From NCBI GenBank assembly GCA_027459645.1, contig DAIDHQ010000032.1, positions 62,001 to 126,000 on the forward strand: a stretch of DNA of 64,000 nucleotides, written 5' to 3'. Of the stretch, positions 23,009 to 30,370 are shown one piece after another. The notes below the pieces were generated by a model, which saw only the letters and a list, made by a program, of their open reading frames with translations, was not told where the DNA came from and did not search any database. The stretch comes from Vulcanimicrobiota bacterium (GTDB taxonomy: Bacteria; Vulcanimicrobiota; Vulcanimicrobiia; Vulcanimicrobiales; Vulcanimicrobiaceae). A program made the position numbers and the translations under genes. Positions within the stretch are counted from its first letter, which is position 1; every line of letters starts with the position of its first letter.

Positions 23009-24355
23009 ATGAATTCTACTCCTGCTTCCTCGGGCAATCGCTGGGGAATCGCACTTGCCGGCGTGATCGTGATGATCTGTCTCGGCTCGGTTTACTCCTG
23101 GAGTATCTTTACCAATTCGCTGATCGCCGGCTTTAATTGGTCGACGCAAACGGCGACAATCCCGTTCGAGCTCGCCGTCTTTTTCATCGGTATCGGCGCC
23201 GTCTTCGGTGGCCGTTGGCAAGACCGCGTGGGTCCGCGCACGGTGACGATCGTCGGCGCCGTTATTTGGGGCGTCGGCGTCTTGCTGGCCGGTCTCGGAA
23301 CGCAATCGTTGGGTTCCTGGTGGCTCGACATCACCTACGGCATCATCGGCGGCTTCGGCAACGGCATGGCGTACGTTACGCCGGTTGCCATGGTGACGAA
23401 ATGGTTCCCCGAGCGGCGCGGCCTCGGAAGCGGTATGGTCGTGATGGGCTTCGGCTTGGGAGCGTTCATCTATAACCAGATCGTCACGCGTCTTGCAATT
23501 TACGGCGCCGCGGCGAAGCCCGCGTTGAAATTCGTCACGTCGCGCGCCGATGCGATTAAGACCGGCGGCACGTTTGATCCCTCGTCGTATCTCTTGTCCG
23601 CCGACGCGGTGCACGGGGTCATGACGATATTCATCGTGTCGGGAATCGTCTTTCTCATCATCGGCGGCTTGTGCGCGATGCTTTTAAAGAATCCGCCCGA
23701 GGGCTACAGCGTTGGCGGCGCTACGGCGGCGGCGACGGCTCACACCTCGAGTTACACGCCGGGCGAAGCGCTACGCACGCCCCAGCTCTACGGCCTGTGG
23801 CTGCTGCTATTCCTCAATGTCACCGCCGGCATCTTCGTCATTTCGAACGCCGTGCCGATGATCAGCCAATTCAGCGGCGCCGGCGCAGCCACCGCAGCCT
23901 TGTGGTATGGCTTCATCGCCATCTTCAATGGACTAGGACGCTTTTTCTGGGGATCGATTTCCGACCGCATCGGCCGCGCGATGGCGTACACGGCAATGTA
24001 CGTGGTGCAGATCGTGATCTTCCTCATCGTCGGGCACCTTGCAGGCCTGGCGGGCGTGCTCATCTGCTTCGCAATCATCCTGCTCTGCTACGGCGGCGGT
24101 TTCGGTGTGATGCCGTCGTTTAACGCCGATATGTTCGGGACGAAATACATGGGGCAGATTTACGGGTACATACTCACCGCGTGGGGCGTCGGAGGCGTGG
24201 TGGGACCGTTCGTCGCGGGATTCGTGCAGGATCGCACCGGTTCGTATGCGGGCGGGCTCGTTTGGATCGCGGGAATGCTGGTGATTGCGGCGGTCATCCC
24301 GTTCTTCATCAAGAAACCGGCCGCGCAACCAACCGCAGTTTCGGCGACTCCTTAG
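23009..24355 (+). CDS. OFA-family MFS transporter (oxalate/formate antiporter-like)
   Basis: A 448-residue MFS protein with twelve predicted helices and the OFA-family start: ALAGVIVMICLGSVYSWSIF, then WSTQTATIPFELAVFF, GGRWQDRVGPRTV (loop 2-3 signature) and GGFGNGMAYVTPVAMVTKWFPERRGLGSG. The second half has ISDRIGRAMAYT and GGGFGVMPSFNADMFGTKYMGQIYG. OxlT exchanges oxalate for formate across the inner membrane. A GAGGGG lies nine bases before the ATG. Standing before a formate dehydrogenase operon, formate or oxalate uptake is the natural guess. Confidence 0.9.
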   Translation: MNSTPASSGNRWGIALAGVIVMICLGSVYSWSIFTNSLIAGFNWSTQTATIPFELAVFFIGIGAVFGGRWQDRVGPRTVTIVGAVIWGVGVLLAGLGTQSLGSWWLDITYGIIGGFGNGMAYVTPVAMVTKWFPERRGLGSGMVVMGFGLGAFIYNQIVTRLAIYGAAAKPALKFVTSRADAIKTGGTFDPSSYLLSADAVHGVMTIFIVSGIVFLIIGGLCAMLLKNPPEGYSVGGATAAATAHTSSYTPGEALRTPQLYGLWLLLFLNVTAGIFVISNAVPMISQFSGAGAATAALWYGFIAIFNGLGRFFWGSISDRIGRAMAYTAMYVVQIVIFLIVGHLAGLAGVLICFAIILLCYGGGFGVMPSFNADMFGTKYMGQIYGYILTAWGVGGVVGPFVAGFVQDRTGSYAGGLVWIAGMLVIAAVIPFFIKKPAAQPTAVSATP

Positions 24356-24373
24356 CTCGCAACGGGCACTCCA

Positions 24374-24397
24374 GCGGGGGCCGTACGCGGCCCCCGC
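24374..24397 (+). terminator. strong hairpin between the OFA carrier and fdhA
   Basis: A perfect ten-base-pair stem (GCGGGGGCCG pairing with CGGCCCCCGC) closes a TACG tetraloop. No T-run follows (ACGCTTTCGG), so it is not a standard intrinsic terminator. It may attenuate transcription or set mRNA ends between the carrier and the dehydrogenase genes. Confidence 0.5.
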
Positions 24398-24421: not shown

Positions 24422-27400
24422 ATGAAGACGACGATCGATCTGACCGCGGGATTATCTGCCGACCTCGATATCGGCGAACGCATTGGCATGCTACCGAACG
24501 TCGCGTCGCAACGTACGAAAAATTTGAAGGGGCGCATCGCGGGCGCGAAGGCCGTCACGAGTTTGTGCTGCTACTGCGCCGTTGGATGCAGCACGCTCGC
24601 ATACGTTAGCGACGAAGGGCGTCTGCTGGACGTCGAAGGCAATCCGGACAGCCCGATCAACGAAGGGCATCTATGCCCTAAAGGCTCGGCGCTCTTCGGC
24701 CTGACCGTCAACGATCAGCGATGGACGACCGTGAAGTATCGCGCGCCGTTTTCCGACCGGTACGAAGAGCGCCCGCTCGCATGGGCGCTCGAGCGCATCG
24801 CACAACTCGTGAAAAAGACGCGCGAAGCAACGTTCGTGCGCGAGTGGACGGATCCGTCGAGCGGCGAACGCAAACGCGTAAACCACACGCTCGGTATCGC
24901 ATCCCTCGGCGGCGCGACCTTCGGCATCGAAGAGAATTACATGCTGGGCAAGCTGATGCGTTCGCTCGGCGTCGTTTCGATCGAAAATCAAGCTCGAATA
25001 TGACACTCCTCGACGGTGCCCGGTCTGGGCACCTCGTTCGGCCGCGGCGGCGCCACGGTGTGGGTTCCCGATCTGGTCAACGCGGACTGCATTTTGATCG
25101 AAGGTTCGAATTTCGCTGAAGCGCATCCGGTAGCGTATCGCTTCGTCATGAAGGCGAAGGAACGCGGCGCCACGATCATTCACGTCGACCCACGGTTCAC
25201 GCGGACGTCGGCCACGGCCGACATTTACGCACCGATACGCAGCGGCACCGATATCGCGTTTCTCGGCGGCGTCATCAACTACGTTCTGACGAACGATCGC
25301 TACTTCAAAGAGTACGTATCTGCATATACGAACGCATCGAACATCGTCGGCGAGCAGTTCAAAGATACCGAAGACCTCGATGGGCTCTTTTCGGGCTACG
25401 ATCCCGAAGGACGCAGCTACGATACCGACACGTGGGCCTACGAAAAGGACGAACGCGGACATGTAAAGCGCGATCCGACGTTTCAGCACGAGCGCTGCGT
25501 GCTCAATGTCTTGCGCCGCCATTACGCCCGTTACACGCCCGAGATGGTCGAACGCGTCTGCGGAACGCCGCAAGCACTCTTCCTGAAAATTGCGAAGCTC
25601 CTGGCGGACAACAGCGGACGCGAGAAGACCACCGCCTTCGCCTACGCCGTCGGTTGGACGCAGCACACCGCCGGCGTCCAATTCATTCGCACGGCTGCAA
25701 TTCTTCAACTATTGCTCGGCAATATCGGACGGCCGGGCGGCGGCATCATGGCGCTTCGCGGGCACGCCGACATTCAAGGCGCCACCGACATTCCGACGCT
25801 CTACGATCTGCTTCCGGGCTATCTGCCGATGCCGTCGGCGTTGCGCAAAGAAGCGACGCTGGAATCGTATCTCTCGGTCAACTCGAAGCCGACCGGCTGG
25901 TGGGCGAATACGCCTAAATACGTGGTGTCCTTGCTCAAAGCATACTACGGCGAGCATGCAACCGCGGCGAACGATTACTGCTTCGACTATCTGCCGCAAT
26001 TGATCGGCGATCACTCGATGTTACCGACCACCTTCGCGATGAAGGACGGCACGGTCAAAGGCTATTTCGTCATCGGGCAAAATCCGGGCGCATCGGGACA
26101 AAACGCAGAGCTCGTGAAAGCGGCGATGGAACGCTTGGACTGGGTCGTGAACATCGATAGTTACGACAACGAGACCGTTTCGTTCTGGCGACGCGAGGGA
26201 GCCGACCCCGGCAAGATCGCGACGGAAGTCTTCTTTCTTCCGGCCGCGACGGTGCTGGAAAAGGAAGGCACCATGACGCAGACGAGCCGCCTTCTGCAGT
26301 GGCACGACAAGGCCGTCGAACCGGCCGGTGATTCCAAGAGCGATGCCTGGTACTTCAACTGGTTCGCGCGGCGATTAAAAGCGTTGTACGCGGATTCGAC
26401 CGACCCGAAGGATCGTCCGATCCAACACATGACGTGGGATTACGATCACGACGATCCGCACGAGCGTGCGAAAGACGAGCCGTCGGTCCTCAAAGTCTTG
26501 CAAGAGATCAACGGCTTCCGCACGGCCGACGGCGAGCAAGTCGCGTCGTTCGCCGAATTGAAGGACGACGGATCCACCGCCTGCGGCGGCTGGATATACT
26601 CCGGCGTGTGCCCCGACAAACATACGAACCGTGCGCGCAACCGTGATGCGAGCGGCCCGTACACGGCCTTGAACTGGGGCTTTGCGTGGCCCGCGAACCG
26701 CCGCACGCTCTACAACCGCGCGTCGGCAGATCCTCAAGGCAAACCGTGGAGCGAGCGCAAGCGCTACGTTTGGTGGGATGACGAGAAGCGTGAGTGGACG
26801 GGCGTCGACGTGCCGGATTTCGTCAAGACGAAAGCACCCGACACGCCCGCCGACCCGGACGGCAAAGGCATGGACGCGCATTCCGGTGCGGATCCGTTCA
26901 TTATGATGCTCGACGGGCGCGGAGCGCTCTTTGTCGCGAGCGGCTTAAAAGACGCGCCGATGCCGGCGCACTACGAACCGTTGCAGTCGGTCGTTGAGAA
27001 CCAGCTCTACGCGCAGCAGTCGAATCCCGCGCTCGGCGAATATCGCCGCCGCGACAATCCGTACAACGCGCCGATCGACGAACGCTACCCTTACGTCTTA
27101 ACGACGTACCGGATCACGGAGCAATCCGGCATCATGACGCGCTACGTGCCGTGGCTCGCCGAGCTGCAGCCCGCGGCGTTCTGTGAAATCGATCCCGAGC
27201 TCGCCGTCGAAAAGCGCATCAAAAGCGGCGATTGGGTGACGATCTCGACCGCGGTCGGCGAAATGGAAGCGCGCGCACTCGTGAGCGGCCGCATGACACC
27301 GCTTCGGATCGGATCGAAGGGCGGCCGCCGGCGCGTGCACCAGATCGGCATCCCGTATAACTTCGGCGATATGGTGGGCCTCGCACGCGGCGATTCCGTC

Positions 27401-27637
27401 GGCAATCTCATCGCGATCTCGCTCGATCCCAACGTTTCGATTCACGAGTCCAAAACGCTGACGTGCGACATCCGGCTGGGGCGCCGCAAAACGCACCATC
27501 GCGACGACATCGATATGGCGGTGCCTTCCGAAGAGCGCGATCCGATGGGTCAACCCGAAGGGAACTGGGCCGGCGCGCATCACGGCCACGGATACCAGCA
27601 CATGCAAGGCGACGACGCAGGAGCATCGACACCATAG
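24422..27637 (+). CDS. fdhA: selenocysteine-containing formate dehydrogenase alpha subunit
   Basis: Oxidises formate to CO2 at a Mo/W bis-MGD centre. The gene must be read through the in-frame TGA at 25001-25003 as selenocysteine 194, giving 1071 residues. Flanking residues ENQARI-U-H match the ARVUHGP active site of FdnG/FdoG, and GTSFGRGGATVWVPD follows as expected. The N-terminal [4Fe-4S] site is C49, C52, C56 and C85. The active-site residues around NCILIEG-like and RRPGGGIMALRGHADIQGATD segments are typical. The N-terminus lacks a twin-arginine signal, unlike FDH-N/FDH-O, so the enzyme probably faces the cytoplasm. Without Sec decoding it would appear as two separate ORFs (24422-25003 and 25016-27637). 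Confidence 0.95.
25001..25036 (+). promoter_or_regulatory. Sec UGA codon and bacterial SECIS element
   Basis: The TGA at 25001-25003 is followed, after 11 bases, by a hairpin: GGTGCCC (25015-25021), loop GGTCT (25022-25026), GGGCACC (25027-25033). Below it CGA and TCG pair around a bulged C at 25014. E. coli fdhF has the same 11-base gap and a loop containing GGUCU, the SelB-binding feature. The element lies in the coding sequence, as bacterial SECIS elements do. Confidence 0.92.
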
Positions 27638-27645
27638 TGCCTACA

Positions 27646-27690
27646 GCCCTTCGACTTCGCGCCTTCGGCGCTGCGCTCAGGATGACAAAG
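27646..27690. repeat. interspersed intergenic repeat with central hairpin
   Basis: The 84-base gap between fdhA and fdhB holds a sequence running from GCCCTTCGACTTCGC through the hairpin GCGCC-TTC-GGCGC to GCTCAGGATGACAAAG. I recognise this CCTTCGAC...GCTCAGGATGAC pattern as a dispersed intergenic repeat in many G+C-rich genomes. Only one copy is in this window. It interrupts an otherwise tightly packed operon. Confidence 0.55.
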
Positions 27691-27721: not shown

Positions 27722-28567
27722 ATGGCTACAGGGTTTTTTACGGACACCACGTTGTGCATCGGATGCAAGGCGTGCGAGGTCGCGTGTAAGCAATGGAACG
27801 AGTTGCCCTCGGACGGATTTTCGTTCACGGGAAACTCGTACGACAACACCTCAGAGCTTTCGGGAACGACGTGGCGCCACGTTGCCTTCATCGAGCAGAC
27901 GACGGCGACGGAAGACGGGGTCGAGAACCGGTGGCTGATGAGCAGCGACGTCTGCAAGCACTGCACGAACGCCGGATGCCTGGAAGCCTGCCCGACCGGC
28001 GCGATCATTCGCAACGAATTCGATTCGGTCTTTATCCAGCCGGACATTTGTAACGGTTGCGGATACTGCGTCGTATCCTGTCCGTTCGGCGTCGTCGATT
28101 TGATCGCAAAGTTCGATCCCGACGGTTCGCACTACAACGTCGCGTCGCTGATGGAAGAGCGTCGCGAAGAACGTCAGACTGCGCTGCAAAACAACGGCGG
28201 CGTAGCCGGTAAGTGCACGCTCTGTTACGACCGCCAGACCCTCGGCTTCACCCCGGCCTGCGCGAAGGCGTGCCCGACCGAATCGATTCAATTCGGCGAT
28301 GTGGAAGAGTTGCGCGAGCGGGCGCGCAAGCGCGCTGTAACCCTTGCCGGACGCGGCGTGGACGCGCAGCTCTACGGCGTCGACGATGTCGGCGGCGGCG
28401 TCGGACCGCTCAATGCGTTCTTCCTCCTGACGGATCGGCCCGAAGCCTACAACCTTCCTGCCGCGCCGGTGCTGCCGTCGACGCGTCAACCGGCCGGATA
28501 TACGGCCGCCGCACTTACCGCGCTCGGCCTCGCCGTCGCAGGATGGATGATCTTCCGCAATGCTTAG
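27722..28567 (+). CDS. fdhB: formate dehydrogenase iron-sulfur (beta) subunit
   Basis: A 281-residue electron-transfer subunit with four [4Fe-4S] sites: C12-x2-C15-x2-C18-x3-C22 (CIGCKACEVACKQW), CKHCTNAGCLEACP, CNGCGYCVVSCPFG and CTLCYDR...CAKACP. A C-terminal hydrophobic helix (about 258-278, AAALTALGLAVAGWMIF) could anchor it. It carries electrons from FdhA to the membrane subunit. There is no clear ribosome site directly before the ATG. The stop overlaps the next gene by eight bases. Confidence 0.94.
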   Translation: MATGFFTDTTLCIGCKACEVACKQWNELPSDGFSFTGNSYDNTSELSGTTWRHVAFIEQTTATEDGVENRWLMSSDVCKHCTNAGCLEACPTGAIIRNEFDSVFIQPDICNGCGYCVVSCPFGVVDLIAKFDPDGSHYNVASLMEERREERQTALQNNGGVAGKCTLCYDRQTLGFTPACAKACPTESIQFGDVEELRERARKRAVTLAGRGVDAQLYGVDDVGGGVGPLNAFFLLTDRPEAYNLPAAPVLPSTRQPAGYTAAALTALGLAVAGWMIFRNA

Positions 28568-29522
28568 CGAGTTCACGCCCGACCAAACCGTCGACGATCG
28601 CCGGCGGCCGACGTATTACGACCTGCCGCTCCTCAAAGCACCGCACTGGGAATGGAACGTCGTCACGTACCTGTTCCTCGGCGGCATCATGGGCGGCCTC
28701 GGTTTGATCCAGCTTCTCGCCGACGGCCGCAAAGAATCGGAACGCACCTTAAAGCGCGACGCGCGCATCACCGCCTTTGCCCTCGCGGCAGCGAATCCCG
28801 CGATCCTCATCACGCACTTGGGGCGCCCCGAACGCTTCTTGAACATGATGCGCATCGTGAAATTCAAATCGCCGATGTCGCTTGGCGTCTGGGGTTTAGT
28901 TTTATATTCCGGCGCGGCGGGTGCAAACATGGTGCGCGAACTCGCGCTCGAAGGCGTTCTCCCGCGCTGGCTGCGCTTTATCGCGCCGGGATTTTTGACG
29001 CCCATGCAAGCGTTGCTCGGCGCGTTCACCGCGGGCTACACGGGCGTGCTGCTCTCCGCGACGGCAAATCCTTTCTGGGGTTCGGGAAAGCGCCATATTC
29101 CCACAGCCTCCGTCGCATCGGGCTTGGCGTCCGCGTGCGCGCTCTCGAGCTTACTCTGCGCGATCGAAGGCAACACCGAACCGCTGCACAAGCTCGAGCG
29201 GCTGGAGATGGCGGCCGGCGCGACGGAATTGCTCGCGCTCGTCGACTTCCGGCGTGCAAGCGGAGAATACGGCAAGCCCTTCTTCGAAGGCGCGCGCGGC
29301 AAGAAGCTGCGCGACACGACGATGATCGCGGGAACGCTCGTGCCGATGGCGCTGAACCTGCTGGGCAGCATCATTAAACTTCCAAAACCCGTCGACGCCG
29401 TTCGCGTGGCGGTCGCATCGATCCTGACCCTGACGGGCGGATATGTCTTGCGTGAATCGCTGATCGAAGCCGGCAAAGACTCCGCGCGCGATCCGCGCGC
29501 CGCCTTCCGTCAACCGACGTGA
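28560..29522 (+). CDS. NrfD/PsrC-type membrane subunit of formate dehydrogenase
   Basis: A 320-residue polytopic protein of the NrfD family, about eight helices: TYYDLPLLKAPHWEWNVVTYLFLGGIMGG at the N-terminus, ILITHLGRPERFLNMMR (the conserved DLGRP-like loop) and SPMSLGVWGL. NrfD subunits lack heme and pass electrons to or from quinones. It replaces the cytochrome b subunit (FdnI) of FDH-N. With no Tat signal on FdhA, the complex probably faces inward and reduces menaquinone. That orientation is inference. Confidence 0.9.
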   Translation: MLSEFTPDQTVDDRRRPTYYDLPLLKAPHWEWNVVTYLFLGGIMGGLGLIQLLADGRKESERTLKRDARITAFALAAANPAILITHLGRPERFLNMMRIVKFKSPMSLGVWGLVLYSGAAGANMVRELALEGVLPRWLRFIAPGFLTPMQALLGAFTAGYTGVLLSATANPFWGSGKRHIPTASVASGLASACALSSLLCAIEGNTEPLHKLERLEMAAGATELLALVDFRRASGEYGKPFFEGARGKKLRDTTMIAGTLVPMALNLLGSIIKLPKPVDAVRVAVASILTLTGGYVLRESLIEAGKDSARDPRAAFRQPT

Positions 29523-30370
29523 GCGAAACGGATTCTCGGCCCGGACGCACGGTCGAATGTGCGATCGATCGCTTCGAAGGGCCGTCGACGCAGCACGTGT
29601 ACGACGAGGTCGTCACCGAAGAGCCGCTCGAGATTCGCGTGATCGCCGGCGGGGCAACCCAGTCGCTCGCCGTCACGATGCGCACGCCCGGAAACGATTT
29701 CGAACTTGCGGCCGGCTTTTTGTTGAGCGAAGGCATCGTGCGTAAGCGCGGCGACATCGCCGGCATCAGTTATTGCATCGATCCTCGGATCGATGCGGAG
29801 CAGCGTTATAACATCGTAAACGTCGAGCTCACCTCGAGCGAACTTCCCGACGCCGCACGGTTCGAACGGCACTTTACGATGAACAGCTCTTGCGGGATAT
29901 GCGGACGCGCGAACCTCGAGGCCTTGCGCGACGCCGGCATCTCTCCGCTCGAAGACGGCGTGCGGCTCCCGCGGCGCATGCTCTTCGACATTCCCGATAA
30001 AATGCGAGCGGCGCAGCGGGTTTTTGCCGCAACGGGAGGGCTCCACGCGGCCGCACTCTTTACGGCCGACGGCGCGATGTCCAGCGTTCGCGAAGACATC
30101 GGACGCCACAACGCGCTCGACAAACTGTGCGGCGCGGCGTTGCTGGAAGGCCGCTTTCCGCTACACCAGCACGGCCTATTCGTCAGCGGCCGCGCCAGTT
30201 TCGAGATCTTGCAGAAGGCGGCCGTCGCTCGCATTCCGATCGTCTGCGCGGTCTCGGCGCCCAGCAGCTTAGCCGTCGATCTCGCCCGTCATTTCAATAT
30301 CACGCTGGTCGGCTTTGTACGCGGCGAACGCGCCAACGTCTATAGCTGCGGCGAACGCATCACGGCTTGA
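29519..30370 (+). CDS. fdhD: formate dehydrogenase accessory sulfurtransferase FdhD
   Basis: FdhD passes sulfur from IscS to the molybdenum cofactor of formate dehydrogenase. The 283-residue protein has the redox pair C125-x2-C128 (NSSCGICGRA), matching the E. coli CxxC. MRTPGNDFELAAGFLLSEGI, FAATGGLHAAALF, VREDIGRHNALDKL and VSGRASFEILQKA are all family signatures. GTG start inside the previous stop. Its 3' end overlaps the convergent histidine kinase gene by 11 bases. Confidence 0.96.
   Translation: MSETDSRPGRTVECAIDRFEGPSTQHVYDEVVTEEPLEIRVIAGGATQSLAVTMRTPGNDFELAAGFLLSEGIVRKRGDIAGISYCIDPRIDAEQRYNIVNVELTSSELPDAARFERHFTMNSSCGICGRANLEALRDAGISPLEDGVRLPRRMLFDIPDKMRAAQRVFAATGGLHAAALFTADGAMSSVREDIGRHNALDKLCGAALLEGRFPLHQHGLFVSGRASFEILQKAAVARIPIVCAVSAPSSLAVDLARHFNITLVGFVRGERANVYSCGERITA

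Follow-up and report, generated by a model that had tools for sequence, protein, structure and literature searches.

A predicted selenocysteine formate dehydrogenase and its SECIS hairpin in Candidatus Eremiobacterota

Introduction

The window analysed in this work is a stretch of 64,000 nucleotides from a Vulcanimicrobiota bacterium (assembly GCA_027459645.1, contig DAIDHQ010000032.1, positions 62,001 to 126,000 of the forward strand). The genome is a draft of 47 contigs that is 96.6% complete. Two adjacent open reading frames (ORFs) of the window, 24422-25003 and 25016-27637, raise the question of whether they are the remains of a broken gene or a single gene in which an internal TGA is read as selenocysteine (Sec). 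An earlier interpretation made from the letters alone (the sequence-only reading) had proposed the latter, namely a Sec-containing formate dehydrogenase (FDH) with a textbook SECIS element.

Results

The alpha subunit gene and its in-frame TGA

Both ORFs share a common frame on the forward strand, and the TGA at 25001-25003 is the sole break. Read through, they form an fdhA/fdnG-like gene (24422-27637) with an ATG start and a TAG stop that is predicted to encode an FDH alpha subunit of 1071 aa with Sec at residue 194, the catalytic Mo/W-ligand position of FDH-N. The read-through product scored 1007.5 bits against TIGR01553 (FDH-N alpha; cut-off 814.2) over residues 19-1017. It also scored 1414 bits against NF041513 (NCBIfam formate_DH_Act), narrowly above the cut-off of 1400. 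The common frame and these model matches bear out the proposal that the two ORFs are one gene split by the TGA.

The alpha subunit is 40% identical over its whole length to E. coli FdnG (formate dehydrogenase N, PDB 1KQF), and a single N-terminal Fe4S4 motif is present in both. NQARV-U-HGPTV of FdnG aligns with NQARI-U-HSSTV, which places the TGA exactly on the FdnG Sec, so the claimed match to the FDH-N Sec site holds. Sec (or Cys) followed by His within NQAR-U-H characterises the active site of FDH-N alpha subunits, and the alpha subunit described here has this arrangement. The two proteins differ at the N-terminus, where FdnG (MDVSRRQFFK) has a twin-arginine (Tat) signal and the Eremiobacterial protein (MKTTIDLT) does not. 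No Tat signal was found in the alpha subunit or its Eremiobacterial relatives, and two deltaproteobacterial-type homologues (L064 and L066) carry one.

The top PDB matches of the alpha subunit are Sec-containing formate dehydrogenases. The closest solved structures are 8cm4 and 9qm0 (E about 1e-245, residues 18-1018), which we take to be Desulfovibrio FdhAB. Desulfovibrio FdhAB is a soluble, periplasmic, two-subunit enzyme. Unlike the enzymes of these structures, the one described here has an NrfD-type membrane subunit and lacks the Tat signal.

The SECIS hairpin

A predicted bacterial SECIS (bSECIS) hairpin begins 11 nt after the TGA on the same strand (25015-25033, GGTGCCC-GGTCT-GGGCACC) and has a perfect 7-bp stem. 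Its fold energy of -13.4 kcal/mol was equalled by 0 of 200 shuffles. The 40-nt fold taken alone is moderately unusual (z -1.98), and thermodynamics was therefore not taken as proof. Comparable hairpins, defined by a 7-bp Watson-Crick stem at exactly +11 with G within the first two loop positions, follow two of the 1327 TGAs on both strands of the window, and the Sec194 TGA is one of the two. The bSECIS model has a loop of 3-9 nt, a stem of 4-16 bp, G in the first two loop positions, a UGA-to-loop distance of 16-37 nt and an MFE <= -7.5 (PMC13188914). The FDH hairpin falls within this model on every count, with a 5-nt GGUCU loop, 7 bp, 18 nt from UGA to loop and the energy given above. A search of the whole window with Rfam at gathering thresholds found no family, and the SECIS call thus rests on fold, spacing and covariation.

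The stem is conserved across the relatives, where 98.8% of the cells are paired compared with 34-54% in slid registers. Double changes in the stem were seen in 14 cells (shuffle mean 2.4). C-G, U-A and G-C are all seen at stem pair 7, and G-C, C-G and U-A at stem pair 4. The compensatory changes are mostly at synonymous codon positions. Pair 7 joins the third positions of a Pro (CCN) and a Leu (CTN) codon, both of them synonymous sites, and its covariation is therefore not driven by the protein sequence.

The E. coli fdhF SECIS (TGA-CACGGCCCATC-GGTTGCAGGTCTGCACC) also has an 11-nt gap and a GGTCT loop, in agreement with the fdhF spacing that had been noticed at this locus. The word "textbook" is appropriate for position, loop and stem length and not for the bulged U of fdhF, which is missing from the uninterrupted 7-bp stem described here. 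Nearly all relatives have the same plain stem without the bulged U. This suggests that SelB of the lineage reads mainly the loop and the stem length.

The selenocysteine machinery of the genome

A genome lacking selB or tRNA-Sec had been named as evidence against the Sec reading. However, selA, selB, selC and selD were all found in the same genome above curated cut-offs. They lie on contigs other than that of the FDH gene. The tRNA-Sec gene (selC; C40:133930-134019, 69.4 bits) has a UCA anticodon, an 8-bp acceptor stem and a 5-bp T stem. Adjacent selA and selB are located at 143.8-147.0 kb of the same contig (524.7 and 311 bits, respectively), and SelB has GTPase domains and the C-terminal SelB winged helix. 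selD is located on contig C26 (379-385 bits). ARAGORN found no tRNA in the window, selC being on another contig. A second tRNA-Sec-like match above the Rfam cut-off, on contig C22, was rejected as a tRNA-Ser.

Homologues and their distribution

FDH was counted as present at E <= 1e-100 and was found in 60 of 118 related genomes. Every homologue match that spans residue 194, from the same genus to other phyla, has TGA at this codon. The 26 distinct 45-nt sites, which include those of Actinomycetota, Thermomicrobiota, Caulobacter and E. coli, all have TGA. Homologues with Cys or another codon and an unconserved hairpin had been named as the pattern that would speak against Sec; no such codon was found among the matches spanning the site, and the hairpin is kept with covariation. 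The relatives that carry names, with 73-84% identity, are MAGs of Candidatus Eremiobacterota (Vulcanimicrobiota in NCBI taxonomy) and assign the genome to this phylum. The Actinomycetota and Thermomicrobiota homologues are 52-56% identical.

In the tree, the sampled Eremiobacterial own-family sequences of the NF041513 type form a separate supported group (100/100), and sequences of the next family in the order are placed beside it with weaker support (90/96). This arrangement fits mostly vertical inheritance there. A more divergent FDH lineage (53-54% identical) is present in the same family in genomes G049 (L045) and G026. The own-family sequence L045 groups with Actinomycetota, and its placement suggests horizontal transfer or a second lineage. 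One homologue piece that covers residues 351-1027 (G035:C63:4064-6091) has a further in-frame TGA, which is an assembly error or something else.

selA is above the cut-off in 96 of the 118 genomes, and tRNA-Sec passed strict filters in 85. Among the genomes with FDH, 58 of 60 have selA, compared with 38 of 58 without FDH (Fisher p 9e-6, relatedness uncorrected). Completeness is 70% and 83% for the two FDH genomes without selA, of which G002 carries tRNA-Sec. The literature searched, which left most subscription papers outside, yielded nothing relevant on selenocysteine in Eremiobacterota, WPS-2 or Vulcanimicrobiota. A groundwater survey of 44,000 MAGs, as cited in PMC13188914, may cover it. 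The Sec trait is widespread in the lineage rather than unusual, and it is apparently undescribed in the literature searched.

The operon

The alpha gene (24422) is followed on the same strand by genes for an Fe-S beta subunit (27722), an NrfD-type subunit (28560) and fdhD (29519). The predicted beta subunit (27722-28567) is of the 4Fe-4S ferredoxin type, with Fer4 domains and a C-terminal hydrophobic segment; its best match is TIGR01582 FDH-beta with 159 bits, under the cut-off of 334.7. The NrfD-type membrane protein (28560-29522; PF03916, 82 bits) is predicted to be quinone-reactive and would take the gamma role. E. coli FdnI is a cytochrome b. The NrfD-type subunit stands here in place of the FdnI of E. 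coli FDH-N. The operon also differs from the E. coli FdnG system in that it includes fdhD (29519-30370; NF001943, 304 bits, cut-off 269), which encodes the FDH accessory sulfurtransferase.

An MFS transporter gene of the lactate or oxalate-formate antiporter type is located upstream on the same strand (23009-24355). It scored 364 bits against NF049980 (cut-off 320) and 209.7 bits against TIGR00890, short of the cut-off of 374.85. Its position alone would link it to formate. A GC-rich inverted repeat, GCGGGGGCCGTACGCGGCCCCCGC, is located at 24373-24396, between this gene and the FDH start codon. A short palindromic element, CTTCGACTTCGCGCCTTCGGCGCTGCGCTCAGGATGACA, is located between the alpha and beta genes (window 27649-27687) and has five genome copies with <=3 mismatches (reversed control 0), and is a REP-like repeat.

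Discussion

A lone in-frame stop in a draft of 47 contigs is often an error, and the TGA could be a codon for Cys (TGC/TGT) or Trp (TGG) that was misread or mutated in a pseudogene. However, TGA is found at the same codon in all spanning homologues from independent assemblies, the hairpin covaries, and the 877 codons 3' of the TGA are open with GC3 similar to that of the neighbouring genes. We regard error or decay as very improbable. The frame running on beyond the TGA would also be seen if TGA were reassigned genome-wide to Trp, Gly or Cys. This is a negligible prospect, since TGA terminates many other long ORFs of the window (18 of the 45 listed, that of the FDH included), tRNA-Sec, SelA, SelB and SelD are present in the genome, and a SECIS follows the TGA.

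A Sec-recoded molybdoenzyme that acts on another substrate, or as a CO2 reductase in vivo, is unlikely but deserves some weight. Homology does not fix the direction or the physiological partner, the beta and NrfD-type subunits are distant from E. coli FdnH and FdnI, and the Tat signal of FdnG is absent. Against this, the FDH-N equivalog model was passed with a wide margin, the NQAR-U-H site is present and fdhD is adjacent. The locus is almost certainly that of an FDH-N-type formate dehydrogenase in which catalytic residue 194 is selenocysteine.

At the level of sequence, the locus and its genome hold the gene, the Sec site, the covarying SECIS hairpin, the full Sec machinery and the operon. 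The product would be a standard selenoprotein and adds, with good support, a new member to the best-known family of selenoproteins. For Sec insertion, SelA would make Sec-tRNA-Sec(UCA) with selenophosphate from SelD, SelB would carry it, and binding of SelB to the mRNA hairpin would recode the UGA. Formate is the expected substrate and would be oxidised by the alpha subunit at a Mo/W-bis-MGD-Sec centre whose maturation is aided by FdhD. Electrons would pass to the 4Fe-4S beta subunit, then to the NrfD-type membrane protein and on to the quinone pool, quinone being the likely acceptor. The enzyme is predicted to be membrane-anchored, probably quinone-linked and, because the Tat signal is lacking, facing the cytoplasm.

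These findings document a complete, working-looking Sec system in Eremiobacterota, a little-studied and largely uncultured phylum. Standard gene callers split this central energy-metabolism gene in Eremiobacterota genomes, which affects the reconstruction of formate use from metagenome-assembled genomes. The implied selenium requirement is relevant to cultivation.

selD and an adjacent permease

selD is itself predicted to encode Sec, in SSCAG-U-AAKMD with TGA at L068:8706-8708 (contig C26 of the same genome). The TGA is kept in relatives, and a weak hairpin begins 11 nt after it. An ArsP_1-family permease gene adjoins selD (C26:39688-40764, equivalent to L068:9687-10764), as it does in many relatives' genomes, and has one in-frame TGA in GGMM-U-TCCTGP. 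A SECIS-like hairpin of 7-8 bp is located 12 nt downstream of this TGA and is thermodynamically not unusual when taken alone (z -0.93). Relatives have TGA (Sec) and TGC (Cys) forms at the same codon.

No NCBIfam model matched the permease above its cut-off. Its nearest curated families are SaoE (74.5 bits, cut-off 325) and SO_0444 (52.9 bits, cut-off 300), and both matches are weak. The SO_0444 Cu/Zn efflux transporter is listed as a UxC selenoprotein (PMC13188914). We slightly favour the view that the Sec system of the lineage also serves this permease as a selenoprotein outside the inventory compared, and the protein may represent an unlisted Sec-permease subfamily. Its role could lie in the export or handling of a selenium or metal(loid) compound. 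The permease is a more novel lead than the FDH.
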